The notes below the pieces were generated by a model that saw nothing but the letters and a program-made list of their open reading frames with translations, was not told the origin of the DNA and ran no database searches. Below are positions 28,429-45,023 of a DNA stretch of 64,000 nucleotides, piece after piece. Origin of the DNA: Lentzea albida (lineage in GTDB: Bacteria > Actinomycetota > Actinomycetes > Mycobacteriales > Pseudonocardiaceae); assembly GCF_900111005.1 (NCBI RefSeq), contig NZ_FOFV01000020.1:1-64000 (forward strand), in the 5' to 3' direction. The first letter of the stretch is position 1, and each line of letters opens with the position of its first letter. The position numbers and the translations under genes were made by a program.

Positions 28429-28548
28429 TTGTGCAGGTCAGACATAGCAATACCCTCAGGCGGACGAGGGCCGAGGGCACCGCGACTCTACCTGTTCCGG
28501 GCGTCGATGCCGCGAAACGTGGCGGTATGCACCATGCTTGTCACTGCG

Positions 28549-29661
28549 ATGGGTTCGCCTTCCGACAACGACGCACCACGCAGGTCCGGCCGCAAGGGGC
28601 CGCTGCGTCTACTCGCGCGCACGCTGTCGAAGGCGTGGCAGGGCAACATCTTCTCAGAAGCGGCCGAGGCCGCGTTCTGGCAGACGCTGTCGTTCCCGCC
28701 ACTGCTGCTCGGCGTGCTCGGCTCGATGGGCTGGATCGGCACGTGGTTCGGCCCGGAGATCGTCCTGTCCGTCCAGGAGAAGATCATCGGGTTCACCCGG
28801 ACGATCTTCAGCGCGGACGTCGTCAACGGCGTGATCGCGCCGACGGTCGCGGAGATCCTCTCCACCGGCAAGGGCGAGATCGTGTCGATCGGCTTTCTGA
28901 TCTCGCTGTGGGCGGGCTCGTCGGCCATGTCGTCGTTCGTCGACGCGATCACGGTCGCCCACGGCCAGTACGGCGTGCGCAACGAGCTGTGGCAGCGCAT
29001 CTTCGCCCTGCTGCTCTACATGGTGTCGCTGGTCGCACTGGTGGTCGGCCTGCCGGTCCTGGCGCTCGGCCCGGACGTCCTGCCGCAGTTCTTCCCCACG
29101 ACCTGGCAGCCGTACATCGAGACGTGGGTCGGGCGTTTCTACTACCCCGGCGTCGGACTGCTGCTCGTGCTGTCGCTGTCGCTGCTCTACAAGGTCGCCC
29201 TGCCGCGCAGGCTGCCCTACCACCGCGTCCTGCCGGGCGCGTTCCTCGCGATGGCCGTGTTCATCCTGTCGTCCATCGGCCTGCGCCTGTACATCCAGTG
29301 GATCACCACCACCGGCTACACCTACGGCGCGCTCGCGACGCCGATCGCGTTCCTGCTGTTCGTGTTCTTCATCGGCCTGGCGATCACGATCGGCGCGTAC
29401 TTCAACAGCGCCGTCCAGGACATGTGGCCCGCCCGCATGACCCGCCGCCAGCGCCGCCGCTGGCGCAGGCTCGAGATGGAGCGCGCCGCGTCCCGCATCC
29501 GCGAGGAGGCCGCGCAGCCGCGCGAGACGTCCGAAGAGACGTCACAGCGGGAGCCGAACAACGGCTACTCGGCGCCGTCCCCCGCGGACACGCAGCTCAC
29601 GACGCCGCTGCGGATCCAGGACCAGCGCCCGCACTCGGAAGAGGAGAAGCAGCGGGGGTAG
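28549..29661 (+). CDS. YihY/BrkB-family membrane protein
   Basis: A 370-residue integral membrane protein of the YihY (formerly tRNA-processing RNase BN) family, with about six transmembrane helices between residues 45 and 305 and the family pattern AEAAFWQTLSFPPLLLGVLG near the N-terminus. The C-terminal 70 residues are cytosolic, basic then acidic and Pro/Gln-rich. Function unknown; the name RNase BN for this family is historical and incorrect. The start is uncertain: ATG 28549 and ATG 28534 are in frame and neither has a clear ribosome-binding site. In M. tuberculosis the homologue (Rv2707) is next to the DUF3039 gene; here the 14-kb RHS locus lies between them. Confidence 0.85.
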   Translation: MGSPSDNDAPRRSGRKGPLRLLARTLSKAWQGNIFSEAAEAAFWQTLSFPPLLLGVLGSMGWIGTWFGPEIVLSVQEKIIGFTRTIFSADVVNGVIAPTVAEILSTGKGEIVSIGFLISLWAGSSAMSSFVDAITVAHGQYGVRNELWQRIFALLLYMVSLVALVVGLPVLALGPDVLPQFFPTTWQPYIETWVGRFYYPGVGLLLVLSLSLLYKVALPRRLPYHRVLPGAFLAMAVFILSSIGLRLYIQWITTTGYTYGALATPIAFLLFVFFIGLAITIGAYFNSAVQDMWPARMTRRQRRRWRRLEMERAASRIREEAAQPRETSEETSQREPNNGYSAPSPADTQLTTPLRIQDQRPHSEEEKQRG

Positions 29662-29697: not shown

Positions 29698-32600
29698 TCA
29701 GCTCGGGTTGACCGGCGTCGCCCACCGCTGGTTCGGACCGCCGTGGCAGTCACCGATGATGATCTGCGTCCCGTCATCCGGCAACGCACCGAAGACGTCG
29801 AGACACCTGTTCGACATCGGGTTCACGATCGTGCCATCGTGGCGCGCGGACCAGATCTGCCCGCCGTCACCCCGGCAGCCCGCCAGGACGGTCAGCGCCG
29901 CGTTGGCCGTGCTCTGGATGTCGAGGCACGAGCCCAGCGCCCTCAGGGTGCCGTCACCGGTGGACCACCAGTTGTGCGCGGACGAGCCCACACACGTGTG
30001 CAGGTTGACCTTGCCGCTGGTGGTGCCTCCGAACACGTCGACGCACTTCGTCGCGAGACCCACGACCTGGCCCACCGAGACGACCTGCGAGCTCAGCCGG
30101 AAGCTCTGCGCAGGGGTGCCGTTGCAGGTGGAGATCAGCAGCGGTGCGAACTCCCCGCCCGCCGACGCCAGGCAGCGGCCGGTCAACGGGTTGACCAGCG
30201 TGCCCTCCTGCTGGGCGAGCCACTGCTGGTGCTGCGAGCCGTTGCAGTCCGCGACGTTCACGGCGCTGCCCTCGCCCGGGGTGTTCGAGGCGATGTTGAG
30301 GCACTTGCCGGAGCCCCGCACGGTGCCGTCGCCGGTCATGACCCAGGACTGGTTCAGCCCGCCGTGGCACGGGTGGACACCGATCCTGTTCTGCGTCACG
30401 TCGGAGTTGAAGATGTCGATGCACTTGCCGACCGGCGCGACGATCTGACCGACCCTGCCGCCGTTGGCCTCGGGCACGACCCAGGTCTGGGACGCGTCAC
30501 CGAGGTTGCAGGCACGCAGTTCGAGCCGGGCCAGATCGGTGTTGGACCGGGGCGTGAGGCACCGCCCGGACTGCCGGTGGACCAGCCGGTTGTCGCCCCG
30601 CAGCGTCCACTGCTGGAAGTCGTCACCCGCGCAGCCGCCGAGAACCGCCTCGGTGCCGTCGGTGGTGCCGGCCGCCCGCAGGCACCTGCCGCCCGCGAGG
30701 ACCAGACCGCCGTGCATCGTCCACACCTGGGCGAAGCCGCCGTGGCAGGTGAACAGCTCGACGACCGACTGGTTGGGATCGGCGTTGAACATGTCGAGGC
30801 ACCGGCCACCGGAGTTCTTCACCACACCCGACAGCACCGGCGTGTCCCGCTTGATCCGCACGTTGCGGAAGCGCACCGGGTCACCGGTGTTGTCGTTCTG
30901 CAGGCCGATGAACGTGTTCCTGCTCGCCGCCGTCGCGTCCGAGAAGCCGTGCTCGTTCACCAGGGTGTCGTTGAGGTACACCGTGACGGTGTTCCAGCGG
31001 AACACGAACTTGAAGGTGTTCCACTGGTTGACCGGCTTGACGGCCGTGGTCGTCAACGGCGGCTTGATCCCGACGACGCCACCGGTCTGCATCGTGCCCG
31101 TCGCGCCCGTGGGCCCGATGTTGATCTCGTACCCGCTCTGGCCGGGGGCCGCGGCGTTGGTGCCGGGGTTGGTGATGCCGACGAACACGCCGGAGTCGGA
31201 GTTGTTCGTGGTCGCCTTCCAGTCGACCTTCAGCGTGTAGTCGCTGTTGTAGGTGTGCGCCGTGTACCAGTTGACGTCGCTGGTGTTGGCGGTGACCGCC
31301 TCGCACCTGTCCGCCGTCATCTTGGTGCCGGTGGACCGCCAGCCCGCGAGGTCGGACTCGGACCGCCCGTCGAGGATGCTGGTGAAGCCCGGCTCGTCCG
31401 CCGCGGTGACGCAGGTGTCCGATGCCGGGCCGGTGACCTTCGCGCTGCCGACGAAGTAGCCGGTGACGTCGGCGCTGAGCTTCGTCTGCCCGCGTTCGTT
31501 GCGGACGCGGACCTCACCGCTGCTCCCGAGCGGCACGAGCGCGAGCCCGGAGGCGGGTTCCGCCTTGCGCGTGCTCACCTGGCTCGCCGGAAGCCAGCCG
31601 ACCTCCTTCGACACCGCGCTGAGCTCGGTGCCGAGGTTGTCGTCGCGACCGGTCAGCACCATGGCCGCCGTCGTCGCCGAGTCCGGGATCCCCGCGGTGC
31701 CGGTCACCTGGAACGCGGCGCTCTGCCCGTGCCCGATCAACGCCTTGGGCACGCCGTTGCCGGTGGCCGTGTCCGCGACACGGCCGACATCGCCGAACGG
31801 AACGTACCGGGCGCCGGAGTCGCCGTCGGCGAACCAGCCGACGACGTCCAGCGCGGCGCCGGCGGTGTAGCCGCTGCTCGTGTTGGTGAGCCGGATCTTG
31901 CCGTCCGCGCCGATCGGGACGACGACGAGGTTGCTCCGCCGTTCACCGGGGCCGAGCACCAGCGACGTCGTCACCGGAACGGACGTCCCACCGGCGTGCA
32001 CGACCAGGAACTGCACCTGCGTGGCCTCGAACCCGGTGAGGTTCACGACAACCGAGGTCGCGGTGGTCGGGACCTGGCCGACACCGCGGACCGGGACGTC
32101 CACGGTCTTCTCGGTGTCGTTGGCACCGATGAGGGGCGTCTTGCGGGTGCTTCCACCGGTCACGACCGGGAAGCCGCGCGTGTCGAGCACCCTGGCGGGC
32201 TCCTTCAGCGCCGTGAACGTGCTCACGCCGTTCGGGTGGAAGTAGCCGAGCCGTTCGACCACGACGACGACCGGGCCGTTGCCGCGGTTGCGCATTTTGA
32301 TCGACCGGGCGCCGTCGAGCGGGGCGAAGAGCGTCATCGTCGTCCACGTCCACGAGTTCTCGCCGCGCCCGTAGATCGTGGGCACCTTGCCGCCGAGCAC
32401 CGCCGGGTCGCCCTGCGCGATCTCGAGGCCGAACTCGCCGATGCTGTCCTGGTTCGCCCTCACCGACACCGTGATCGCGACCGCGGTCGACTCGCTCGGC
32501 AGCGAGGAGAACGGGATCGTCCTGGTCTCACCGGCCGCGAAGACCTGGCCGGCGACCGTGCGCGTCGGTACCGGGTCGGCCGTGTACTTGGAGCCTGCGG

Positions 32601-34203
32601 GGGCTGTGGGCACGTTGGTCGCCGCACCGACGTTGAGCACGCCGCTGCCCCACGTGTTCGGGTCGGCGTTGGCCGGGCGCACCGCCCTGCCCTGCAGGGC
32701 GGACTGGAGCTGCGTCGCGTCGAGCGCGGGGTTCGCGGACTTGAGCAGCGCCGCCGCGCCGGCGACGTGCGCGGTCGCCGCCGAGGTGCCCCGGAAGTCC
32801 GGGGCGGGCCACATCGACGTGCTCGTCCGGTCGAAGCCGATGATGTCGGGCTTGGTCCTGCCGTCGATCGTCGGGCCGCGGCCGCTGAAGTCCTCGACCT
32901 GGCCGCTGCCGGGCTGGGTGGCGCCGACCGCGAGCACGTGCGGGGACGTGGCCGGCTCGGTGATGCTGCCCGCCTCGGTCCAGTACTGGATCTGCTCCGG
33001 ACCCGCCACGAACAGCTCGAACGGCGTGGTGAACCGGGCGTTGTTGTTCTTGACGTAGACGTAGAACGGCCGGCTCGACGCGGCGGTGTTGCTGATCTGC
33101 ACCTCTTCGGTCGGTGAGAGCCCGCCCTGCGCGTCCTTCTGCGACCGCAGCGACACCTTCCTGGGTGCGGGTGCGTTGGGCGCGTCCGGCGCGATCATCT
33201 GGTCCATGACGTAGAGGTCGAGGTCCTCGTTCGTCGTCGGCCAGGCGTCCCAGCGGATGCTGATCGTCGCGGACTGGTTCGCGCTGAGGATGATCTGGTT
33301 GAACTGGGTGTCGTTGCGGAACTTGACCCACCTGGTGTCGCCGGTGACGACCGGCGTGCCCGCGAAGTGCGTGCGGGCCAGGTTGCCCGCGGCGACGTTC
33401 CACAGCACGCCCTTGGCGCGGCTGCGCTTGACCACGTCCGCGGGGCTGTCCTGCGGGCCGCTGCCGTCGCCGCGGCCACCGGACGGGCTGAGGAAGCCGA
33501 CCGCCGAGGAGATGATCTTGACGCCCTGCTGGTCCATCCAGTCCGCCGCGGCGGAGAAGCTCACGCTGTCCTCGACGCACGCGAGGTAGAGCTCGGCACC
33601 GGGTGCCATGTCGTGCACGGTCTCGGCGACGTTCGTGCCGTGCACGGACTTCGTGGTCGCGTCGAGGCAGCCCGCGTCCCGGTAGGCCAGCTGCGGGCCG
33701 GTCGCCGGCAGCTCACCCGCCGCCTGGGACGCGGCCAGGTCGCCGAAACCGACGTCGATGATGCCGACCTTGACGCCGGCGCCCGTCTTGCCGGCGGAGA
33801 TCCACTCGTTCGCGCGCGACGGCACCACACCCTCGGACGTGACACCCATCGGCACCGCCCGGTCGGGCAGCCGGACCTCGGTCACGCCGGCCTGGCTCGC
33901 CACGACGTCGAGCTTGTCCTGCGGCACGACCGCCTTGACCCGCCCCGCGTCGGCGTCGGCCACCACGCCGCCGGCCTTCGCGACGGCGGCCCGCAGCGAC
34001 GACTCCTGCGCGCCCTCGACGTAGACGATCATGCGGCCCTGGGCGTCCTTGGCGACGTCCTGGCTCCCGACGACGTGCCTCGCAGAGTTGACGACGTCCG
34101 GTCTGGCGCCGTTGCCGGGGGCCGCCTGCACGGGCGAGACCGCCCCGGCGACTCCCAGCGTGAGGCACGCGGCCGCGACGGCCACGCGTCTGGTTCTTCT
34201 CAT
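29698..34203 (-). CDS. Secreted subtilase with DUF1080-type and ricin-B repeat domains
   Basis: A 1501-residue exported protein. Residues 1-27 are a Sec signal peptide ending VQAAPG. The S8 subtilase domain (about 130-540) has a complete triad: Asp150 (GIIDVGFGD), His188 (VHGTNVAETV) and Ser473 (FRGTSAATAHVAG), plus the oxyanion Asn near 272 (WNVAAGNLA). Residues about 640-930 hold two related beta domains (one with ARVLDTRGFP). Residues about 939-1120 match the 3-keto-disaccharide hydrolase (DUF1080) jelly roll. The rest, to 1501, has nine QxW-type repeats (QVW, QQW, QTW, QSW, QQW, QSF, HNW, QIW, QRW), i.e. three ricin-B beta-trefoils. Its ATG overlaps the stop of the SUKH immunity-like gene by 4 bases, so it belongs to the RHS operon. 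Likely a secreted, glycan-binding protease; substrate unknown. Confidence 0.9.
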   Translation of the reverse strand: MRRTRRVAVAAACLTLGVAGAVSPVQAAPGNGARPDVVNSARHVVGSQDVAKDAQGRMIVYVEGAQESSLRAAVAKAGGVVADADAGRVKAVVPQDKLDVVASQAGVTEVRLPDRAVPMGVTSEGVVPSRANEWISAGKTGAGVKVGIIDVGFGDLAASQAAGELPATGPQLAYRDAGCLDATTKSVHGTNVAETVHDMAPGAELYLACVEDSVSFSAAADWMDQQGVKIISSAVGFLSPSGGRGDGSGPQDSPADVVKRSRAKGVLWNVAAGNLARTHFAGTPVVTGDTRWVKFRNDTQFNQIILSANQSATISIRWDAWPTTNEDLDLYVMDQMIAPDAPNAPAPRKVSLRSQKDAQGGLSPTEEVQISNTAASSRPFYVYVKNNNARFTTPFELFVAGPEQIQYWTEAGSITEPATSPHVLAVGATQPGSGQVEDFSGRGPTIDGRTKPDIIGFDRTSTSMWPAPDFRGTSAATAHVAGAAALLKSANPALDATQLQSALQGRAVRPANADPNTWGSGVLNVGAATNVPTAPAGSKYTADPVPTRTVAGQVFAAGETRTIPFSSLPSESTAVAITVSVRANQDSIGEFGLEIAQGDPAVLGGKVPTIYGRGENSWTWTTMTLFAPLDGARSIKMRNRGNGPVVVVVERLGYFHPNGVSTFTALKEPARVLDTRGFPVVTGGSTRKTPLIGANDTEKTVDVPVRGVGQVPTTATSVVVNLTGFEATQVQFLVVHAGGTSVPVTTSLVLGPGERRSNLVVVPIGADGKIRLTNTSSGYTAGAALDVVGWFADGDSGARYVPFGDVGRVADTATGNGVPKALIGHGQSAAFQVTGTAGIPDSATTAAMVLTGRDDNLGTELSAVSKEVGWLPASQVSTRKAEPASGLALVPLGSSGEVRVRNERGQTKLSADVTGYFVGSAKVTGPASDTCVTAADEPGFTSILDGRSESDLAGWRSTGTKMTADRCEAVTANTSDVNWYTAHTYNSDYTLKVDWKATTNNSDSGVFVGITNPGTNAAAPGQSGYEINIGPTGATGTMQTGGVVGIKPPLTTTAVKPVNQWNTFKFVFRWNTVTVYLNDTLVNEHGFSDATAASRNTFIGLQNDNTGDPVRFRNVRIKRDTPVLSGVVKNSGGRCLDMFNADPNQSVVELFTCHGGFAQVWTMHGGLVLAGGRCLRAAGTTDGTEAVLGGCAGDDFQQWTLRGDNRLVHRQSGRCLTPRSNTDLARLELRACNLGDASQTWVVPEANGGRVGQIVAPVGKCIDIFNSDVTQNRIGVHPCHGGLNQSWVMTGDGTVRGSGKCLNIASNTPGEGSAVNVADCNGSQHQQWLAQQEGTLVNPLTGRCLASAGGEFAPLLISTCNGTPAQSFRLSSQVVSVGQVVGLATKCVDVFGGTTSGKVNLHTCVGSSAHNWWSTGDGTLRALGSCLDIQSTANAALTVLAGCRGDGGQIWSARHDGTIVNPMSNRCLDVFGALPDDGTQIIIGDCHGGPNQRWATPVNPS

Positions 34204-34781
34204 TCTCGGTTCCCCTCAGGTCCGGCCGTCTCCGGCCGGTTCGACCATGCCTCAGTCACTTTTCCGGGCTGCGCGTAGAACGTCAGCGGATCCTCTGGTT
34301 CGAATTCGAACAGTTCACTCCGAAGACTCCCCGAAAACAACTCGGCGAGGTAGTCCGAAGCAGTTCCCTCAAACTCTTCCCACCGGAGGAATTGCTCGTC
34401 GCAGGCGACGATCGTCCAATCATCCGGGCCGCCTCGGTCGGTGCGCCAGAACACCGTGCAGGCATCGCCCGCGTAGGCCCACGGGATCAAACCCCCGGAC
34501 ACGGGGAAGAGCGCGTGCGGCAGCGTCTCCCTGAGCCTCCCAACCTCCAGCGTGTCCTCGGACTCCATGACGTAGGAGCTGAAGGACGACTCGTTCTGCG
34601 CTGGCGCGAGCATGAAGACGTAGTGGTGGAAGACCCCGCTGCCGAATGTCGACGCGATCTCCTTGAAGTCACTCGGGAAAGCGAACCCGAGGCGCCCCTC
34701 GACCATCTCCCACGAAAGTGTGGTCAGATTCTGGGACGGTCTGCGGAACAGGGTTCGCAGCCTTTCAGCACTTGGGAGCAT
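34200..34781 (-). CDS. SUKH/SMI1-KNR4 family immunity-like protein
   Basis: A 193-residue cytosolic protein with the SUKH fold pattern: LGFAFPSDFKEIASTFGSGVF (about 32-52), a central PWAYAGDACTVFWRTD and a final DYLAELFSGSL. SUKH proteins are the commonest immunity proteins for nuclease-type polymorphic toxins. The ATG at 34781 was chosen because GGGAAG precedes it and it begins 17 bases inside the toxin gene's end. The longer upstream start lies further inside the toxin frame. Its stop overlaps the subtilase start (ATGA). Base composition is visibly more A+T-rich than in neighbouring genes, as is common for exchanged toxin-immunity modules. It presumably neutralises the RHS nuclease domain. 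Confidence 0.88.
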   Translation of the reverse strand: MLPSAERLRTLFRRPSQNLTTLSWEMVEGRLGFAFPSDFKEIASTFGSGVFHHYVFMLAPAQNESSFSSYVMESEDTLEVGRLRETLPHALFPVSGGLIPWAYAGDACTVFWRTDRGGPDDWTIVACDEQFLRWEEFEGTASDYLAELFSGSLRSELFEFEPEDPLTFYAQPGKVTEAWSNRPETAGPEGNRE

Positions 34782-37700
34782 TGGGATTCTTCCCTGGAAT
34801 GTTGTCGATAGTGGCGACACAATAGAAACCCTTGCTGCCGATGGCGACCAGGGTAGTGGACTGCGGAATCGCGTCCTCCGGATCGGCGTATTTCGCGGTC
34901 ACATGCAGGTACACGTTCTCGCCTGCCAGAACTCGGTTCTTGATGGACCTCTCGATGCTCCTCTGGTGCGGAGAGTTCGGGTGCTGCCACTGAGGAACCA
35001 GGTTGTCCAGTTGGTTCGCTCCGCGCAGCTTGTCGCCGACCAGGTGACCGCTGTGCATCTTGTTGCCGTGCGCGTCCTCGTGGACCCATCCCGCCGGCTT
35101 CTTCGTCTTCAGCGACACTCGCTCGGCGGGAAGGGTTTCCAGACACACCGCACCGCCGGTCGCCCTCTTCGCGTCCTTCGGTTTGATCCCGTGGTAGGTC
35201 GGGCCCGTGAAGTCCTTGATGTCCTCCATCGGTGCGTAGATCGGCTGGTCGGCGAGCAGGCCGATGCTCTTGCAGAAGTCGCCGCTGGTGCGATTCGCCT
35301 GCGCGGCGTTCGCCGCCGCTTCCTCCCGGGTGATCCGTTTCGACCCCTCCATGTAGGAGTAGTTCTTGTCGAACAGTTCGTTGACCATCAGGGCGACGTC
35401 GTTGGTGGTGTACCTGACGTGGCTGCCGGCTGCCGACCGAGCCCACGGGTTGAGGGCGTTGACGATCCACGCGGGCGGAGGCGGAGGCAGAACGACCTGG
35501 TAGGGGTTCCCGATCCCCGTGGTGGAAGGCGGCACCGGCGAGTTCGGAGCCGGCGGTCTGGGCAACGTCACCCGTCCTGGGAAGAACGACGGCAGGTCGC
35601 ACTCGGCCGCGCTGCGGCAGACGGACCGCTCCATTTCGTTGCCGCAATGGCGCCGCCTGCAGTTGCGCTGCTCCGGGCGCGACTGTGTGCTGACCGAAGG
35701 CCACGAGATGGACGGCGCCCGCGTGTTGGACGCGATGATGGCGGCGACACCCACGGCCGCGAAGGCGACGATCAGGCAGCCACCGACAGCGGCCGGTGCG
35801 GCTGGTCCCGCGAAGGCACCGAGGCCGCAGACCGCCGGGTTGTGACCGGTCGGGTCGGTGTGACCGACCGGGTCGTTGTTGCCGTAGGCGTAGCGGTTGC
35901 CGGCCGCGGACGGGCTCGGGTTCACCTCCAGCGGGTCACGGCTCTGGAACTGCCCGGTGCCGGGCGAGTACCAGCGCGCGGTCATGTTGACCGCGCCGGT
36001 GTCGGCGTCGGTCCAGTCACCCTGGTAGCCGATCGGCGAGACGTCACCGGAGGAGGAGACGGTCTTGCCGAACGGGTCGAGCGCGCGCTTGCCGTCGACG
36101 CTGCCGCCCAGGTACCGGCTGATCACGTCACCGTGCTGGTCCGCGAAGAGCATCCTGCCGGAGCCGGTCGCGGACCTGTCGGAGAACGGGGTTCCGTCGG
36201 GCAGGCGGCTGATCTGCCTGCTGCCGTCGGTGACGGCCTCGTTGCTCAGGCCCGCGTACTGGAACCGTGTGCCGTTGCGGTCGGCGACCCGGCCCACCGC
36301 GTCGTAGCTGTAACGAGCGGCACCGCTTGCGGTGAGCTGGTCGAACGCGTCGAACGCCGAGGTGTTCGTGGTGCCGTTCGTCGTGGTCGAGGCCAGCGTG
36401 CCGCGGGCGCTGTAGGTGTAGGTCGAACCGCCGCCCGACTTGAGCCGGTTGCGCTCGTCGTAGGTGAAGGTCTGGCCACCCGCGGACGTGCGGTTGCCCG
36501 CGTCGTCCCACCCGTAGGAGGTGACGGTGCCGGCGTTGTCCTTCCAGGTGCTCAGCCGGCCCGCGCCGTCGTAGGTGTAGGTGTTCGCGGCACCCGGCGC
36601 GGACTTCGACGTCATCTTGTCGTCGCGGTCGTAGCCGTAGTCGGTACCGGTGACGACGCGCGGCGGCAGGCCGACGTCGATCATCTGCTGGACCTGGTCT
36701 GTGCTCTTGCGGCCGAGCTCGTCGTAGCCGATGCGCCGGTTGATCCGGTTCGCCACGGTGCGGTCGCTGATCAGCGACACCCGGCCGGCCTCGTCGTAGC
36801 CGTAGTCGGCGGTGCGGCCGGTGACGGGGTCCACGACGCTGGTCATCCGGCCCGCGTTGTCGTACCCGAAGGTGGCGGTGCCGGTGACGTCGGTGCGCGT
36901 CGCGAGCGTACCGTCGCCGTTGTAGGTGTACGTCGCGGCACCCGCGGGGCCCGCTGACTCGAGGAGGTTGCCCCGGTCGTCGTAGCGGTAGGTGCTCACC
37001 CCACGAGGGCCGCTGACGCTGGTGGTCCGTCCGGCCTTGTCGTAGCCGACGGTTCGATCGGCGGTCGTTGTCTCGGCCCCGGTGCCGCGCTCGGTCGTGA
37101 GCCTGCCCTGCTCGTCGTACTCGCGGACGACCGTGACGCCACCCGGCTTGACGAGCTTCACCGCCTGGCCACCCCTGTCGTAGCTGGTCGTCCAGGTTCG
37201 GTCGGCCGTGTTGGGGTGGTCGGGCGTCGGCGGTTCGACGATCGACTCCGGCAGCCCCGTCGAGTTGTAGGTGTAGGTGGTCGCGCGGCTGTTGCCGTCG
37301 ACGAACCGGCTGCGGTTGCCGAGCTTGTCGTAGCCGAACGACGTCGTGATCGACTTCGTCGCGTCGACCTTCTCCACCTGCTCGTCGAGTCTGTCGCGCT
37401 CGTCGTACTCGTACCTGGTGACGCGACCTTCCGGCGTCGTCACCGTCGCGACCTGGTCACTCGGGTGGTAGGTGGTCGCCCACTCCCGCTTCTTCACCCC
37501 ACCCACGAGGTGCGCGGTCGCGGTCGGCCGGCCCAGCAGGTCGTAGGTCGTCGAGGAGACGACCTTCGCCGGGTCTGTCGTGGTGGTGACCCGTCCGGCG
37601 ATGTCGTAGCCGTACTCCGTCGTCACACCCGTCGGGTCGGTCGTGCTGAGGACCTCGCCAGCCTTGTTGTAGGTGTGCTTCGTCGCGAAGCCCTGGGGTG

Positions 37701-40700
37701 TCTTCGATTCGAGGAGGTTGCCAGCGATGTCGTACGACATCTGCGAGGTGTAGAAGAGCATCGAGCCCGACGACGTGTCGGTCTCGGTCGTCGTCAGCTT
37801 CCGGCCGAGCTCGTCGTAGGTGTAGCGGATCTCGGCCTTCAGCGGATCGATCGACGTCAGCAGCTGACCGACTCGGTCGTAGCGTTGTTCCAGCGTGGTC
37901 GGGGTCGCGCCGACCTGCGGCAGAGTCGTCGTGCGGACGCGGCCGTACGGGTCGTGGGTGTTGGTGGTGACGCGGTCCAGGGCGTTGATCGTCTTGGTCA
38001 CGTCGCCCGCGAAGTTGTACTCGGTGCGAGCGGTCGGTGTGACCGGCGTGCCTCCGGGCGCCGTGTAGGACGGGTACGCGACCTCGACCACCCGGCCCAT
38101 CGAGTCGTACTTGGTCGTCGAGACTCCACCCGCAGCGTCACGTGCGTGCGTGACCTCACCGAAGGCGTTGCGTCCCAACGTCTCCGTCGCCGCGAAGTTC
38201 TGCGTCGCGGTGCCGGCGACCCACACCTCGGTGGGCGGGTTGACCGTGTTCACGAGCTCGCCAGCGGCGTTGTAGGTGAAGGACGTCGAGAGCTGACGGC
38301 GGTTGGTGAGCTTGACGACCAGTCCTCGCTCGTCGCGGTCGACCGATGTCGTCAGTGCCGCGCCGACGTTGAGGAACGCGTCCTCGCTCTTGAACTCGCC
38401 GGCCGTGTCGTAGGTGTTGACGGTCGTCTCTACGCGGTTCGGGTCTGCGGCACCGCGGCGTTCCGTCCTGGTCGGTAGCCCTGCCGCGTCCCGCTGGTAG
38501 GTGATGCTCCGGTTCAGCCCGTCAGGGTCGAAGGTGGCCTTCGTGAGGAAACCGGCCGCGTCGAACGTCTGCACGGTCTTGCGACCGCCCGTGACGACCT
38601 GTTCGACCAGGTTGCCGGCCGGGTCGTAGACACGGTCCTCCAAAACCGGGTCGCACGGACCGTTCGGCCGGACACAGCCCTGCAGCTGTGTGGACGCGAG
38701 CAGACCGTCGTCGTAGTAGGTGTACTTCCTGGTGCGGCCCATGGCGTCGGTCGTCGCGGAGAGCCGACCCACCGGATCGTAGGAGTTGAACTCGACCGCG
38801 AGACTGGTCGCCTGGGGGTTGAGCGGGTCGACGCCCACGCCACTCGTGCTGCGCGAGAGGATCCGGCCTTCCTCGTCGGAACGGGTGGTCCAGACGGTGC
38901 CCCGGACGTCGGTCGCGACCTCGGTCAGGGTGTCGTCGAGGTACTCGGTTCGCTCAACGCCTCCGTCGGGGAACTCGGTGCGGACCAGGCGGTCGTTGGC
39001 GTCGTAGAACTGCTTCGTGACGCGCGCGGCGTCACCGCCCTGCAGCACCGGCGTCAGGTCGGAGACCACGGCTTCGACGACGTTGCCGTTGCCGTCGTAC
39101 TGGTTCGTGGTGACCTTGGTGTGCGTGATGCCGGTCAACGGGTTCACCACGGCCGGTTCGGTGACCTTGGCGATCTGCGACCGCGGCGTGTACTCGTAGG
39201 TCGTGGTGCCGAAGACCGCGCCGCCGGGGTTGGCGGTGGTGACGGTCTTCTGCCTCCCGATGGCGTCGTAGGTGAACCTCGTGTGCAGCTTCGACGGCGA
39301 GACCTGCGTGGCGAGATCACCGTTGGAGCGGTACGAGAACACCGTCTCGTCGCCGCGGCGGCCGACGGATTTCACGAGCAGCCCGGCCGGCACGAGGCCA
39401 CCGCCCACCGCCTGCTCGTTCCCGGTGGAATAGGTGTTGGTCTCGACCGGGGCGACGGTGAACCCGTCCGGCAGCGGGTAGGTCGTCTTCAGCAGCCTGC
39501 CCACGCTGTCGTACTGGTAGGTCCGGCGGTAGCGGGTGTCGTTGGCGTCCGTCGATCGTCCATCCGAGATGGACTCGACCTTGTCACCCCTGGGGTCGAG
39601 CGCGTTGGTGCCCGTCACGTAGGTGAAGTAGGTCGTGTTGCACGAGCCGGCGGCGCGACAGGTCTTGTTGCTCAGCACGTTGCCGCGGTCGTCGGTGGTG
39701 AACTCCGACCGCTTGCCGTTCTCGTCGACCAGCGCGGACCGGAAGCCCGCCGTGTTGTACTCGAACGAGACCGTTCGTCCTCTGTGGACGCGAGACTGGA
39801 GGCGACCACCGTTGTCGATGTCCGACCGGTAGGTCCAGTCACCGTGGTTGGCGGGACCGCGCAGCACGGTCGTGCGCGTCGAGTCGAGCACCTGGGGGAC
39901 GTCCATCGTCCAGGTGCGGCCGACGTGGTCGACCATCGTCTTGACGCGGTCGTTGACGTTGTCGTAGGTCAGCTTGACGAACTGGCGGGCGTCCTGGGGC
40001 AGCTTGACGGCGGTCAGCTCGTCGATCGCGGACCGCGCCCCGAAGTGCGCCGCCGCGGCGAGCGAGCCGAGCGGCCTCGTGTAGACGGCGACCTCGTCGA
40101 TGGCGCCGGCGAAGAAGTGGTTGCCGCCGTTGGTGGCGGGCCAGTCCTTCGTGTGGCCGGCACCGAGGGTGTACTTGCCCTGCTTGCGGTGGTCGACGTA
40201 ACCGTTGAGGTCGTCGCCGACCTTCACGCCGTCGAGGTACATCGTCTGCTTGTTGATCGCGGCCGACAGCACGACGTGGTGCCACTGGTCGTCGTTGACC
40301 GTGTTGCCGCTGACGATCTGTCGGGCACCGCCGTTGTCCCGCAGCGTGAATCCGCCGTACAGCAGGCCGTCGGTGCCGACGTAGAGCAGTGGCGTCGATT
40401 TGGTGGCGCCGGGGTCGGCCGGGGGGAACGCCTTGTCCGAGTAGCTGATCAGAGTGCCGTGCGAGGTGGTCTTGAACCACAGCTCGACCGAGGCCGACAT
40501 CGTCGCGGTCGTCATGTCGTCGGGCAGCGTCGCGTAACTGCTGACACCGTCGAAGGTCGCGGCCTTGTCCGTCGTGCCACCGAGTGCGCCGTCGCCGCCG
40601 AGCACGACACCGGTCATCGCGGCCGAGTTCTGGCCGGGCCTGCGGGCCATGACGTTCGCGAACGCGGTGCCGGAGGTCTCGCCGAGCCGCCAGTAGGCCT

Positions 40701-43647
40701 TCGGGTTGTCGTCGACGACGGTGCTGCGGTAGTGGTTGCCCTGGGTGTGCTCGTAGTCGGTGCAGTTCGGCGCGGCGCCGGGCACGCAGGCCGAGGTCAT
40801 CCGGTCACCGGTGTAGCTGTAGGTCCACTCCAGCTGCGCCCCGCCGGCCTCGGGCGCCTGGGTTGTCACCTTGGTGACGTGCGTGCCCTGCCAGGTGAGC
40901 GTGAGAGCGCGGTTGCTCGTGCTGCTCGTGATCGTGCTGGGACGGTCACCCGAGTTGTAGTCGAGCGTCTGGACCAGTCCGGCGGGGTCGGTGATCCTCG
41001 CGAGCCTGCCGAGGATGTCGAACTCCCACTTCGAGCCGGAGTTGTCGCGCAGGGTGTAGATGCCGGTCGCCGTCGAGAGGACGAGGTCGGTGCTGTCACC
41101 GAGCGGCGAGCTGAAGGTGTTGTCACCGCCCGGGTTCTTGCCGAACCGGACCTGCCTGCCCGTCGGGTACGTGACGACCACGTTCTCGGAGCCGTCGTCG
41201 TCCGCCTTGAGCCGCATGTCGAGCCGGGAGGCCCAGCCGACGCCGAACGCCGTGTCGCGCCGGGGGTCGAGGCTATTGTAGGTGCGGGTGATCGTGAGGT
41301 CGGGGCCGGCCGTGGCGACGGTCGCGTCGGTGACGACCGTGGAGTAGTTGCCGATCCCCGCGTCGAGTCCGGGTCCCTGGACGCTGTCCGGGCTGCCCGC
41401 GAGGTGTGAGGTGATCTGCGGCTGCGCCACGCGCGTGGTGATCGCGAGCGGGCCGACGCCCCGCGCTCCGACCCAGTCCGGAGTGGCGTCGACGGTGTCG
41501 TGGACCTTGACGCTCCAGTAGTAGGTCTTGTGCCAGCGCAACGCCGCCGGCGCCCACGACTGAGCCGTCCAGTCCGATTCCTGGCAGTCCGCGGTCAGCG
41601 CCGCGTCGGTGCAGATCCGGAACTTGTAGTTGAACCCCTTGCCCGGCCAGTTGTCGTCGTCCACCGGGTCCGCGTACAGCGTGGGGGTGTTCGTCTCGAC
41701 GACCGCGCCGGTGCCGGGCTGCTGGTTGTTCGACATCGGCGGGACGTTGCTGACCTTGATGCTCGCGACTCCGAACGGAACCTCGTGCGCGTCGCGGAAG
41801 TTCGCGCCGCCCGGCGTGAACATGGTCAGCTCGAGCCGGTACTCGTCCGGGTTCAGCGGGCTGATCGGCACCTCGAACGTGCCGGTCTGCGTCGGCGCGA
41901 TGGAGATCGCCGGCGCGAACGACTCGGTGCGGACGAACGCGTTGTCGGACGCGCGCCGGACGTTGAAGCCGAACTTGAAGCCGTTGCCCGGCGTCCAGGT
42001 CGACGAGCCGAGGTTGGTGACCTTGGCCTTGATCGAACCGGCGCGGTTGGCCGTCGGCAGCAGCACCTCGGCGACCTCGAACGACGCGCCCTCGTCGGAG
42101 TAGCGGACGTCGAGGTACGGGGTGTTGACCGCGGCGGCGTTGGCGGAGGCGAACCGGTGACCGGTGCCGTTGGCCTCGTTGCTGGCGCGCACGCTGATGC
42201 CGTTGGCGAGGGCGCGGTTGTGCGTCCAGCTGGTCATGACCTCGCGGTTGAGCGGGATGGCGGACCAGCGGTTGTTGGCGCACGAACCGAGAGATCCGGT
42301 GCCGAGCGCCTGCCCGACGGCGGCACCGGGCCAGCTGATGCCCGTCCCCGTCCAGGACTGGGTCACCTCGAACGCCGTGAAGGGGTACTGGGTGCAGGAC
42401 GGGTCGGAGTTGTTCAGTGCCAGCGATGCGCCGACGACGTACTTGTTGGACAGCGCCGCGGGCAGCGGGAAGTGCAGGTACGCGCGGCCGATGCCACGCC
42501 CGTCGCCGACGGCCCCGGCGATCAGGTTGACCTCGGAGGAGTGGCCGCTGGGCGAGCCCGGCTGCACGTACGTGTCGTCGAGGCTGGTGTTGAAGGTGCC
42601 CACGGTGGGATCCACCGTGACCGGGAAGACGCGCTGCGAGTCGAAGAGCCATGCCTGGTCGAGGTCCATGCGCAGCGTCCAGGTGCGGTCGCCGGCCTTG
42701 TCCAGCGCGTAGCGGACGTCGCGGGAACGGACACCCGCCGCGTCGTCCATGAACCCGGCGGGCAGCATGGCGACGACGCGGTCGCCGTCCACGAGTTCGA
42801 CATCACCCGCGCTCGTGAGCCTGGGCTGCAGGCGTTCGGTCGTGAGGGTGAACGAGAACGAGGTGGGTGCGCCGGCCGAGGCCAGCACGAGGTCTTCCTT
42901 CACGCCTGTGCGGGTCGCGGTCAGGCGCAGGTCGACCTCAGGCCGCACGGCGCGGTAGGTGACCTGGGCTCCGTCGACCTCGCCGCGCACTTCGGCGGCG
43001 TCACGCAGTCCGTAGGTGAGTCGGTGGTCGGGGCCGAACGCGAGGCGAACGAGGTCGCCGCGGGCGCTCGTGGTCGCGATGGTGGTGTCCGCGGGGCTGT
43101 TCTTCGGTTTGAGCCGGCCCTCCGACGGCACGAGCGCGAGATCGACCGGAAGGTAGGTGCCGTCGGACTGGCGGACGTTCACCTGCTCGTTGTGCACGCG
43201 GACGGTGTGGGTGCCATCGGGGTTGTCGAACGTCCGCGTCGTGTCGGTGCGGTCCTGCGGACGTTCGGTGGCGTTCGGGTCGATACCGTCGAGGGAGGCC
43301 GGCTGTTCGACCTTCGGGGTGACCTTCTGGCGTTCGGGCGAGGACCTGCTCACCTCGGGCAGAGGGACGGGCTGGTCGGCGACCGCGTTCGCGGGCCTCG
43401 GCTGGTCGCGCTTCGCGAGGGCGTTCCTGGCGCGGGTGGAGTCCGAGGTGGCTTCGTGGGTGGAGCCTTCGGCGGTACCGGTCTGCTGCTGGGGCGGAGT
43501 GGTCGACGCACCCAGGGGGAACGTGCCGGACAGTGACGGCGGTAACTCGGCTCCCGACACGACCGAGAGCACAAGGGCCACGACGAGCAGCAGGCAGATC
43601 TGTCTACGCGTGCGTCTGTGCGCAGCGCTGAACCACGCGTATCTCAA
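34765..43647 (-). CDS. Giant secreted RHS/YD-repeat protein with C-terminal nuclease domain
   Basis: A 2960-residue polymorphic-toxin-type protein. Residues 1-33 are a signal peptide (RRQICLLLVVALVLSVVSGA). A DNRLRE-type domain (about 349-525) follows, then an RHS start region (PDLTITRTYNSLDPRRDTAFG). A LamG/concanavalin-like domain is embedded at about 971-1202. Dozens of YD repeats (YxxxGRLxxxT-like) fill about 1220-2530. The RHS core ends in GYQGDWTDADTG and RDPLEVNPSPSAAGNRYAYGN, around 2539-2600. The variable tail carries a beta-beta-alpha-metal (DNA/RNA non-specific endonuclease-like) motif, HSGHLVGDKLRGANQLDNLVPQ, with the probable catalytic His near 2868. The start appears to be TTG 43647 behind GGGGGGAA. 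It is followed by an overlapping SUKH gene and a secreted subtilase gene. Presumed contact-dependent or secreted antibacterial toxin. Confidence 0.93.
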   Translation of the reverse strand: MRYAWFSAAHRRTRRQICLLLVVALVLSVVSGAELPPSLSGTFPLGASTTPPQQQTGTAEGSTHEATSDSTRARNALAKRDQPRPANAVADQPVPLPEVSRSSPERQKVTPKVEQPASLDGIDPNATERPQDRTDTTRTFDNPDGTHTVRVHNEQVNVRQSDGTYLPVDLALVPSEGRLKPKNSPADTTIATTSARGDLVRLAFGPDHRLTYGLRDAAEVRGEVDGAQVTYRAVRPEVDLRLTATRTGVKEDLVLASAGAPTSFSFTLTTERLQPRLTSAGDVELVDGDRVVAMLPAGFMDDAAGVRSRDVRYALDKAGDRTWTLRMDLDQAWLFDSQRVFPVTVDPTVGTFNTSLDDTYVQPGSPSGHSSEVNLIAGAVGDGRGIGRAYLHFPLPAALSNKYVVGASLALNNSDPSCTQYPFTAFEVTQSWTGTGISWPGAAVGQALGTGSLGSCANNRWSAIPLNREVMTSWTHNRALANGISVRASNEANGTGHRFASANAAAVNTPYLDVRYSDEGASFEVAEVLLPTANRAGSIKAKVTNLGSSTWTPGNGFKFGFNVRRASDNAFVRTESFAPAISIAPTQTGTFEVPISPLNPDEYRLELTMFTPGGANFRDAHEVPFGVASIKVSNVPPMSNNQQPGTGAVVETNTPTLYADPVDDDNWPGKGFNYKFRICTDAALTADCQESDWTAQSWAPAALRWHKTYYWSVKVHDTVDATPDWVGARGVGPLAITTRVAQPQITSHLAGSPDSVQGPGLDAGIGNYSTVVTDATVATAGPDLTITRTYNSLDPRRDTAFGVGWASRLDMRLKADDDGSENVVVTYPTGRQVRFGKNPGGDNTFSSPLGDSTDLVLSTATGIYTLRDNSGSKWEFDILGRLARITDPAGLVQTLDYNSGDRPSTITSSTSNRALTLTWQGTHVTKVTTQAPEAGGAQLEWTYSYTGDRMTSACVPGAAPNCTDYEHTQGNHYRSTVVDDNPKAYWRLGETSGTAFANVMARRPGQNSAAMTGVVLGGDGALGGTTDKAATFDGVSSYATLPDDMTTATMSASVELWFKTTSHGTLISYSDKAFPPADPGATKSTPLLYVGTDGLLYGGFTLRDNGGARQIVSGNTVNDDQWHHVVLSAAINKQTMYLDGVKVGDDLNGYVDHRKQGKYTLGAGHTKDWPATNGGNHFFAGAIDEVAVYTRPLGSLAAAAHFGARSAIDELTAVKLPQDARQFVKLTYDNVNDRVKTMVDHVGRTWTMDVPQVLDSTRTTVLRGPANHGDWTYRSDIDNGGRLQSRVHRGRTVSFEYNTAGFRSALVDENGKRSEFTTDDRGNVLSNKTCRAAGSCNTTYFTYVTGTNALDPRGDKVESISDGRSTDANDTRYRRTYQYDSVGRLLKTTYPLPDGFTVAPVETNTYSTGNEQAVGGGLVPAGLLVKSVGRRGDETVFSYRSNGDLATQVSPSKLHTRFTYDAIGRQKTVTTANPGGAVFGTTTYEYTPRSQIAKVTEPAVVNPLTGITHTKVTTNQYDGNGNVVEAVVSDLTPVLQGGDAARVTKQFYDANDRLVRTEFPDGGVERTEYLDDTLTEVATDVRGTVWTTRSDEEGRILSRSTSGVGVDPLNPQATSLAVEFNSYDPVGRLSATTDAMGRTRKYTYYDDGLLASTQLQGCVRPNGPCDPVLEDRVYDPAGNLVEQVVTGGRKTVQTFDAAGFLTKATFDPDGLNRSITYQRDAAGLPTRTERRGAADPNRVETTVNTYDTAGEFKSEDAFLNVGAALTTSVDRDERGLVVKLTNRRQLSTSFTYNAAGELVNTVNPPTEVWVAGTATQNFAATETLGRNAFGEVTHARDAAGGVSTTKYDSMGRVVEVAYPSYTAPGGTPVTPTARTEYNFAGDVTKTINALDRVTTNTHDPYGRVRTTTLPQVGATPTTLEQRYDRVGQLLTSIDPLKAEIRYTYDELGRKLTTTETDTSSGSMLFYTSQMSYDIAGNLLESKTPQGFATKHTYNKAGEVLSTTDPTGVTTEYGYDIAGRVTTTTDPAKVVSSTTYDLLGRPTATAHLVGGVKKREWATTYHPSDQVATVTTPEGRVTRYEYDERDRLDEQVEKVDATKSITTSFGYDKLGNRSRFVDGNSRATTYTYNSTGLPESIVEPPTPDHPNTADRTWTTSYDRGGQAVKLVKPGGVTVVREYDEQGRLTTERGTGAETTTADRTVGYDKAGRTTSVSGPRGVSTYRYDDRGNLLESAGPAGAATYTYNGDGTLATRTDVTGTATFGYDNAGRMTSVVDPVTGRTADYGYDEAGRVSLISDRTVANRINRRIGYDELGRKSTDQVQQMIDVGLPPRVVTGTDYGYDRDDKMTSKSAPGAANTYTYDGAGRLSTWKDNAGTVTSYGWDDAGNRTSAGGQTFTYDERNRLKSGGGSTYTYSARGTLASTTTNGTTNTSAFDAFDQLTASGAARYSYDAVGRVADRNGTRFQYAGLSNEAVTDGSRQISRLPDGTPFSDRSATGSGRMLFADQHGDVISRYLGGSVDGKRALDPFGKTVSSSGDVSPIGYQGDWTDADTGAVNMTARWYSPGTGQFQSRDPLEVNPSPSAAGNRYAYGNNDPVGHTDPTGHNPAVCGLGAFAGPAAPAAVGGCLIVAFAAVGVAAIIASNTRAPSISWPSVSTQSRPEQRNCRRRHCGNEMERSVCRSAAECDLPSFFPGRVTLPRPPAPNSPVPPSTTGIGNPYQVVLPPPPPAWIVNALNPWARSAAGSHVRYTTNDVALMVNELFDKNYSYMEGSKRITREEAAANAAQANRTSGDFCKSIGLLADQPIYAPMEDIKDFTGPTYHGIKPKDAKRATGGAVCLETLPAERVSLKTKKPAGWVHEDAHGNKMHSGHLVGDKLRGANQLDNLVPQWQHPNSPHQRSIERSIKNRVLAGENVYLHVTAKYADPEDAIPQSTTLVAIGSKGFYCVATIDNIPGKNPNAPKC

Positions 43648-43768
43648 CGCGTTCCCCCCAGTTTGCGGTTGTCACCCTCCCGAGGCGGGAGTGCGCGCGA
43701 AAGCTAACCGGGGCAGCTCACACTTCGCTCACGCATCGCTGACGTCGCCGCGACAGCGAACTGAGACA

Positions 43769-43812
43769 GCCGCGCCCGGTGCCTCGAGTCAGGTCGAGGC
43801 ACCGGGCGCGGC
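43769..43812. terminator. Strong hairpin between RHS and DUF3039 genes
   Basis: A 19-bp perfect stem (GCCGCGCCCGGTGCCTCGA with its complement TCGAGGCACCGGGCGCGGC) and 6-base loop lies 26 bases beyond the DUF3039 stop and upstream of the RHS gene on the same strand. It should end DUF3039 transcription before the toxin promoter. Confidence 0.85.
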
Positions 43813-43837
43813 CGTCGGTGCGGTTCTGGGGTGTGGC

Positions 43838-44120: not shown

Positions 44121-45023
44121 GTGACCACGCTGCAGATCGCTGACGAAGTTGCCGCCGCCCTGGCCGAGAACCGGCCGGTCGTCGCTCTCGAGAGCACCAT
44201 CCTGTCCCACGGCCTGCCCGCGCCGCGCAACCTGACCGTCGCCGCGCGCCTCGAGAAGGTGGTGCGGGAGGCCGGTGCCGTTCCCGCCACGATCGCCGTG
44301 CTCGACGGTGTGCCGCACATCGGGCTCTCCTCGGCCCAGCTCGACCGCGTCTGCACCTCCGGCGACCTCGTGAAGCTGTCGTTGCGCGACCTCGGGGCCG
44401 CGTACGCGCTGGGTCGCAGCGGCGCGACGACCGTGGCGTCGACCACGGCGCTCGCCCACCAGGCGGGCATCCGGGTGTTCGCGACCGGTGGTCTCGGAGG
44501 GGTGCACCGCGGGGCGCGCGAGACGTGGGACGTGTCCGCCGACCTCGACGTCGTGGCGACGACGCCGGTGCTGATCGTCTGCTCGGGCGTGAAGTCGATC
44601 CTCGACATGGGCGCGACGCTGGAGGTCCTCGAGACCCGGTCGGTGCCGGTCGTGGGCTACCAGACGTCCCGCTTCCCGGCCTTCTACCGCCGCGAGTCGG
44701 AGTTCGACGTGCCGTGGCGCGTGGAGAACCCGGCCGAGGCCGCCGCCGTGTTCGCGGCCGGTGGTCGCGGCATGCTGCTGGTGAACCCGATCCCCGCCGC
44801 GTTCGAGATGGACGCGGGCCTGCACGACCGGCTGCTCGCCGAGGGCCTGCAGAAGCTGGTCGACCAGGACGTGCGCGGCAAGGACGTCAGCCCCGTCCTG
44901 CTCGAGCACTTCCACACCGCGAGTGAGGGCGTCAGCCTCGACGCCAACGAGGAACTGGTCGTCAACAACGCCTCCGTGGCCGCCGCCACCGCAGTCGCGC
45001 TCTCCGGTGAGCTGGCCCGATGA
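44121..45023 (+). CDS. psuG: Pseudouridine-5'-phosphate glycosidase
   Basis: A 300-residue enzyme that cleaves the C-glycosidic bond of pseudouridine 5'-phosphate into uracil and ribose 5-phosphate. The family motifs are ALESTILSHGLP (Glu24 region), GVHRGA, and the Schiff-base lysine in SGVKSILD (Lys158), with NPIP near residue 233. The partner kinase gene overlaps its end by 4 bases (ATGA), so the two form the pseudouridine salvage operon. GTG start; no obvious Shine-Dalgarno sequence. Confidence 0.95.
   Translation: MTTLQIADEVAAALAENRPVVALESTILSHGLPAPRNLTVAARLEKVVREAGAVPATIAVLDGVPHIGLSSAQLDRVCTSGDLVKLSLRDLGAAYALGRSGATTVASTTALAHQAGIRVFATGGLGGVHRGARETWDVSADLDVVATTPVLIVCSGVKSILDMGATLEVLETRSVPVVGYQTSRFPAFYRRESEFDVPWRVENPAEAAAVFAAGGRGMLLVNPIPAAFEMDAGLHDRLLAEGLQKLVDQDVRGKDVSPVLLEHFHTASEGVSLDANEELVVNNASVAAATAVALSGELAR

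Follow-up and report, generated by a model that had tools for sequence, protein, structure and literature searches.

A Putative Protease–Lectin Partner of Polymorphic RHS Toxins Conserved in Lentzea and Other Actinomycetes

Organization of the Locus

The window studied here, i.e., the whole stretch of 64,000 nucleotides analysed from Lentzea albida, contains three overlapping genes that code for an RHS polymorphic toxin, a small SUKH-like protein and a large subtilase with lectin domains, referred to below as the companion (Table 1). The overlaps announced in the original prediction agree with the coordinates, one of 17 bases (the SUKH-like ATG lies at 34781 and the RHS stop codon ends at 34765) and one of four (ATGA, the middle gene ending at 34200 and the subtilase starting at 34203). 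The gene order is beyond chance, as it recurs in every full-length homologous locus found. A 23-bp hairpin (-56.5 kcal/mol, z -7.5) separates the small upstream gene from the RHS gene; by eye, three syntenic loci and five empty sites have inverted repeats like it. The promoter scan of the unit found no promoter-like site, and the single minus-strand terminator-like site within it (34702-34687) is within chance (three found, 6.5 expected). Overlaps and hairpin together would fit a single transcript beginning just upstream of the RHS gene.

Table 1. Genes, domains and other features of the RHS–subtilase unit and its borders.
Feature	Position	Strand	Remarks
Flanking gene, one border of the empty site	28528..29661	+	
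Subtilase–lectin companion	29698..34203	-	1501 aa, ATG start (ORF list); N-terminus signal-peptide-like by eye
Three ricin-type beta-trefoil lectin domains	29722..30831	-	Profile match
3keto-disac_hyd domain, residues 939-1118	30850..31389	-	Profile match
Triple beta-repeat module ("RVLDTR" repeats), residues 535-920	31444..32601	-	Common to PLL-lectin companions
S8 domain, residues 123-534	32602..33837	-	Triad D150, H188, S474; oxyanion N274
Propeptide-like region, residues about 56-118	33850..34038	-	Model aligns to pro-subtilisins from residue 56
SUKH-like immunity gene	34200..34781	-	No signal peptide seen by eye
RHS polymorphic toxin gene	34765..43647	-	2960 aa, TTG start (ORF list); N-terminus signal-peptide-like by eye
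Endonuclea_NS_2 nuclease tip, residues 2826-2931	34855..35172	-	Profile match
PPPPPAW pre-toxin linker of the RHS protein	35467..35487	-	Candidate recognition/cleavage region only
Rhs_assc_core, C-terminal end of the shell	35842..36078	-	Profile match
LamG_3 inside the RHS core, residues 1033-1193	40069..40551	-	Profile match
DUF6531 of the RHS protein, residues 765-835	41143..41355	-	Profile match
DNRLRE domain of the RHS protein, residues 357-514	42106..42579	-	Profile match
Terminator-like hairpin	43765..43816	-	Between the small upstream gene and RHS
Flanking gene, other border of the empty site	44121..45023	+	

The first protein carries DNRLRE, DUF6531 and LamG_3 domains, RHS repeats, Rhs_assc_core and an Endonuclea_NS_2 tip (E 6.3e-12), that is, the RHS/YD repeats, associated core and C-terminal toxin tip of an RHS polymorphic toxin. 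DUF6531 is the N-terminal plug family in Tse5, according to PMC10684867, from which the Rhs aspartyl autoprotease motif DPXG-X18-DPXG was also taken. The two DPxG of this motif are not complete in the window shell, where both Asp are kept and the first PxG is lost; RHS self-cleavage may still occur, since the Asp pair is retained. We had considered the loss of the motif as a mark of subtilase-linked shells and discarded it, given that comparison shells carry the same change (in one of them, L138, the motif was not found). In L. indica (L040/L051) the RHS frame changes near query core residue 1453, which may reflect sequencing error or decay.

The Pfam matches of the companion to Peptidase_S8 (70.9 bits), 3keto-disac_hyd (PF06439, E 1.2e-25, presumably the former DUF1080) and Ricin_B_lectin (three stretches, E 5.8e-62) bear out the predicted subtilase with DUF1080-like and ricin-type domains. 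As for the nine ricin repeats also predicted, three trefoils are compatible with that number, although a script counted eight QxW/F motifs. The triple beta-repeat module had no match in Pfam (whole protein) or NCBIfam (module alone), and the structure-model comparison covered residues 56-534 only. The Asp-His-Ser triad of the subtilisin fold is intact in all 22 subtilase copies and the oxyanion Asn is kept in 21; the exception is L190, where a frame change splits the companion into an S8 ORF, which has the triad and lacks this Asn, and a module–ricin ORF. The score for the mycosins of type VII secretion is far too low for such an assignment (TIGR03921, 52.3 against a cut-off of 278.75 bits). 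The C-terminal parts vary among companions: three ricin domains, ricin plus LamG (L056) or, by eye, a LamG-like end (L061), while in L197 the profile scan found S8 and module and no lectin match.

Conservation of the Pair and Its Insertion Site

Among 24 Lentzea genomes there are seven full-length subtilase copies, in six genomes, and a same-class RHS gene lies directly upstream of every one of them (window included). A scan of named genomes kept 80 loci, 12 of which have a same-strand RHS shell upstream; their records are named Lentzea species, Nocardia sp. NRRL S-836, Saccharothrix obliqua (twice), Amycolatopsis orientalis, Virgisporangium, Actinoplanes and Paractinoplanes. As six of these 12 repeat Lentzea copies, the distinct full-length loci are 13 (the window and 12 others), from two actinomycete families, and the subtilase stands directly behind the RHS gene in all of them. 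Conserved linkage in unrelated genera, which the original prediction had named as support, is thus seen across records labelled Lentzea, Saccharothrix, Amycolatopsis, Virgisporangium, Actinoplanes and Paractinoplanes. The 68 loci without an RHS match include many short contigs and one from Nonomuraea (L061) in which the contig edge cuts the ORF directly upstream of the subtilase, an ORF that resembles an RHS pre-toxin region; the remaining 67 have more distant S8 proteins and flanks, many of them short, without an RHS match. Two distant S8-module homologues without ricin (L045 and L046) do lie away from RHS genes, in 20-kb stretches with 10 kb covered upstream. The opposite outcome considered at the start, that homologues of the subtilase occur mostly away from RHS genes, therefore fails within the full-length family (13/13 linked) and finds support only outside it, in these two. 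L062 was rejected as an unlinked copy because its contig begins inside the gene and the upstream side is absent. The best-scoring second-tier copy (G026) and G012:C183 are outside the comparison set.

The linkage belongs to this class and not to S8 or RHS genes generally, since the L. albida genome has 32 S8 matches and four RHS cores but only one neighbouring pair, and across the 24 Lentzea genomes the companion goes with seven of the 147 matches to the RHS core.

The genes that border the unit, which we take to be YihY/BrkB-like (28528..29661) and PsuG-like (44121..45023), occur together in 24 of 24 Lentzea genomes. The gap between them measures 307–389 bp in 18 genomes and 14.25–14.56 kb in the four, L. 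albida being one, that hold the unit; in G011 it is 892 bp and in G023 4495 bp. The 14-kb block is therefore found at the window site in 4 of 24. Three of the seven Lentzea copies (G006:C38, G007:C58 and G019:C32) sit elsewhere in their genomes. The G011 gap (L222, G011:C14:30400-31600) contains an orphan SUKH gene beside the small flanking gene, with neither RHS nor subtilase, and this gene, which shares 69% identity with its L. waywayandensis counterpart (L050), may have been left behind or gained alone. If the subtilase is part of the attack arm, a SUKH gene standing without the other two is what one would predict. In the G023 gap (L219, G023:C17:39000-43800) there was no RHS or subtilase match; it holds two tandem secreted-looking genes with repeated propeller-like sequence, as judged by eye.

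Variable Tips and Immunity Genes

The middle gene of the window resembles SUKH_6 just under the cut-off (26.1 bits, E 1.3e-5; cut-off 27 bits) and is 26–36% identical to the middle genes of five other loci (tblastn). Six of the 13 loci have a SUKH-like gene between RHS and subtilase, three have a zinc-ribbon-like one (called from below-cut-off profile matches in two loci and from resemblance in the third) and four have none. Pfam scans of 12 tips (that of L051 was left out) gave NS_2 in ten and PIN in two; NS_2 tips go with a SUKH-like or no middle gene and PIN tips with a zinc-ribbon-like one, PIN being present in both zinc-ribbon-like loci whose tips were scanned (two of three). The tip varies at a conserved junction with matching immunity, as in RHS polymorphic toxins, with 4 of the 13 loci lacking the middle gene. 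These four and the three zinc-ribbon-like loci do not agree with the three-gene toxin, SUKH and protease set first proposed; rather, the immunity gene is optional and exchanged along with the tip, and RHS shell plus subtilase form the fixed pair. L183 and L187 have single ORFs of 392 and 419 aa between RHS and subtilase, with two tandem SUKH-like halves by eye.

Shell Lineages and Related Companions

In a tree built on the final 230 residues of 53 RHS cores (16 of 69 RHS tails, 11 of them without companion, were omitted for want of the end-of-core motif), all 20 subtilase-linked shells form one clade (support 96/97) that extends across Pseudonocardiaceae and Micromonosporaceae, and all 12 shells with a module companion lacking S8 form another (99/94). 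In a mirror-tree of 12 loci, companion domain distances agree with those of the RHS N-terminal part and core (Spearman 0.65–0.82) and weakly with those of the tip (0.16–0.34), an agreement confounded by shared species history, which can yield part of the correlation. L051, with its broken RHS frame, was omitted from both analyses.

Following the beta-repeat module brought out a second class, in which the RHS gene is followed by a secreted-looking protein (744–837 aa in five Lentzea loci) made of the module and a PLL-type propeller lectin that matches Photorhabdus lectin 8q83 (PLL) by profile (E 9.8e-31). The triple beta-repeat module behind RHS is shared by both classes (hhalign 99.5%, E 5.6e-23), but the PLL-lectin class has no protease, PLL instead of 3keto-disac_hyd plus ricin, and a different shell clade. 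All 14 strong module copies of Lentzea stand behind an RHS core (seven of subtilase type, six of lectin type and G018:C555, unread), and in 15 of the 36 family genomes outside Lentzea that have a module match, 13 of 13 copies of at least 292 bits are RHS-linked, counts that are favoured by a module profile built from RHS-linked copies. Weaker non-Lentzea copies are mixed. The module is not an RHS-only feature, an idea we rejected since no RHS core precedes three weaker loci of G005, and G466:C50 and G545:C14, for example, are unlinked. Another 17 loci had been picked for a module match by an RHS core and so are not usable as a linkage test.

Some further genes were seen around these loci. In L143 (1874-5074, minus strand) a third secreted-looking gene follows the lectin companion, with BNR repeats (sialidase-like) and three LamG stretches; L146, L149 and L151 have ORFs of similar length and with similar starts. 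In L138 (3864-6554, minus strand) an FG-GAP repeat protein with a PLL-like lectin end lies behind a HINT-type RHS gene.

HINT Domain and Pre-toxin Linker

HINT is a built-in self-cleaving domain. We classified 69 RHS tails by profiles, the HINT profile having been trained on 11 of them, and HINT was found in none of the 21 subtilase-linked tails. It is present in 23 of 32 tails without companion (the other nine lack it), in 5 of the 15 whose companion has the module and no S8 (a PLL match was seen in 14 of these) and in the single tail whose companion is a PLL lectin without the module. Given this training set and the shortness of a few tails (L191, 185 aa), some calls of no HINT outside the subtilase group are unsure. 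The PPPP..W pre-toxin linker occurs in 17 of the 21 subtilase-linked tails (absent in four) versus 0 of 48 others. The comparison loci were chosen by ourselves (19 by N-terminal similarity; 20 RHS cores without a nearby module match), and the Fisher p-values treat loci as independent although they are related: HINT absence and linker both belong to a single clade and may each go back to one event, so that these values overstate the evidence. The pattern is as cleavage in trans would give, although one ancestral loss of HINT, possibly one evolutionary event, would give it too.

That any companion means no HINT was a rule formed on 19 RHS loci and later dropped, as five of nine new loci with a module companion lacking S8 have HINT. 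It holds only for the subtilase type, in eight of eight new loci (one of them, L182, with a shell nearly identical to that of L060) and with HINT in 0 of 21 overall. Downstream of the HINT-type RHS gene of L202 (4060-4908 in the orientation of that gene) there is a second HINT-bearing ORF, possibly an orphan tip cassette.

Comparison with Known Toxin Systems

Secreted RHS/WapA-type toxins with SUKH immunity have, as a general picture, an RHS core, a polymorphic tip and an adjoining SUKH-like immunity gene, all of which recur here. Unlike them, the window class has a fixed S8-lectin companion, tails in which HINT was not found and an optional immunity gene. The T6SS Rhs effectors Tse5 and RhsA share with it an RHS core whose end, ahead of the tip, is a DPxG region (PMC10684867), but in the window export would be of Sec type, the first PxG is lost and the protease is a separate gene. 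The available part of PMC3482391 names subtilisin as one of the proteases that process polymorphic toxins and gives a mycosin-like protease close to Ntox38. The same fold is tied there to toxin processing, so the association is already known in kind; those proteases are, however, inside toxin proteins or, for Ntox38, in the neighbourhood, and we found no S8-ricin companion in that part of the paper.

In architecture the unit is also like the umbrella toxins (UmbA/UmbB/UmbC), secreted actinobacterial polymorphic toxins with a co-encoded protein of protease fold and lectins (PMC11062931), lectins that serve species-specific binding according to PMC13274773. In that system there are UmbC with ALF repeats, a trypsin-fold UmbA without the full triad (none of the S. 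coelicolor UmbA proteins has a complete one) and UmbB, whereas the window has an RHS shell, a subtilisin fold and an intact triad; no ALF repeats appeared among the Pfam matches of its RHS protein. In the limited literature searched we found no description of an RHS–subtilase–lectin unit, or of a fixed S8-lectin partner of an RHS shell, and no paper on Lentzea together with Rhs. The system is analogous to umbrella toxins yet distinct from them, and is a variant of polymorphic RHS toxins.

Proposed Function and Alternatives

To our knowledge, it is not clear how Gram-positive secreted RHS toxins without a contractile injector find their target and release the tip. Comparison of the loci bears out the linkage, the intact triad, the coupling to shell lineage and the presence or absence as one block at the site, so far as sequences can tell, and a real, conserved, shell-coupled protease–lectin partner of secreted RHS toxins is well supported by it; the catalytic step is presumed. 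The companion very probably works together with the RHS shell. Judging by their signal-peptide-like N-termini, the nuclease-tipped RHS shell and the subtilase–lectin would both be exported, and the SUKH-like protein, without signal peptide, would protect the producer in the cytoplasm. Outside the cell the companion would attach to surface glycans through its variable lectin domains. Its subtilisin domain, which comes with a propeptide-like region, would act upon the shell system; the likeliest step is a cut in trans in the HINT-less pre-toxin region of RHS that frees the tip at the target. Export, glycan binding, an antibacterial target and above all the substrate are what we infer in this scheme. 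Cleavage of the RHS protein by the companion is only tentatively proposed, and we are equally hesitant about the whole, a two-component secreted antibacterial toxin whose subtilase would free the tip by cutting the RHS pre-toxin region in trans.

From the roles initially suggested for the companion (processing the shell, opening the target or acting as a second effector) the evidence leans toward a shell-related one. It might instead open the target, with lectins docking on cell-wall glycans or glycoproteins and the subtilase cutting surface proteins so that the RHS tip enters. The lectin tails do differ by lineage (three ricin domains, ricin plus LamG in L056, LamG-like in L061, none in L197), as for target recognition, and the companions of the sister RHS clade, with PLL lectin and no protease, suggest that recognition may be the common function. 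We regard this as rather unlikely, since it does not predict the link to HINT-less shells with a special pre-toxin linker and the L197 companion is S8 and module without a lectin match. Quite improbable is an ordinary secreted scavenging protease–lectin for the digestion of lysed prey, tied to the toxin by co-regulation only: S8 matches are many in the L. albida genome (32), ricin-type matches are common in Lentzea and S8-module proteins also occur away from RHS, but the linkage is to one shell clade, the G011 SUKH gene stands without RHS and without subtilase, and only 1 of those 32 S8 matches and 1 of four RHS cores are neighbours.

A structural adaptor, with a protease fold that holds the shell and presents lectins and with catalysis irrelevant, would follow the same logic as UmbA, where protease fold and lectins are co-encoded with a polymorphic toxin (PMC11062931). 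The S. coelicolor UmbA proteins described in that text have no complete triad, however, and the retention of D, H and S in 22 of 22 copies, together with the propeptide-like region, makes such a role very unlikely here. Least probable, to a point where we give it hardly any weight, is self-protection by a subtilase that degrades re-entering or misfolded toxin; it could make sense of the four loci of 13 without an immunity gene between RHS and subtilase, but the subtilase N-terminus looks exported, the gene is absent from the orphan-SUKH site of G011 and it tracks the shell more than the tip.

Taking up again the release of the tip by the companion, a broader and still more tentative view is that of a second actinomycete class of multi-component secreted toxins, in which RHS cocoons would be armed by module-based companions and the live subtilisin of one branch would replace HINT in releasing the tip, in trans and at the target surface. 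With one shell lineage that keeps its protease–lectin gene through changes of tip and antidote, the question of how such toxins find targets and release their tips becomes testable with one purified pair. The finding also predicts a wider family of RHS companions, PLL lectins included, that share a module left unnamed by the Pfam and NCBIfam scans.
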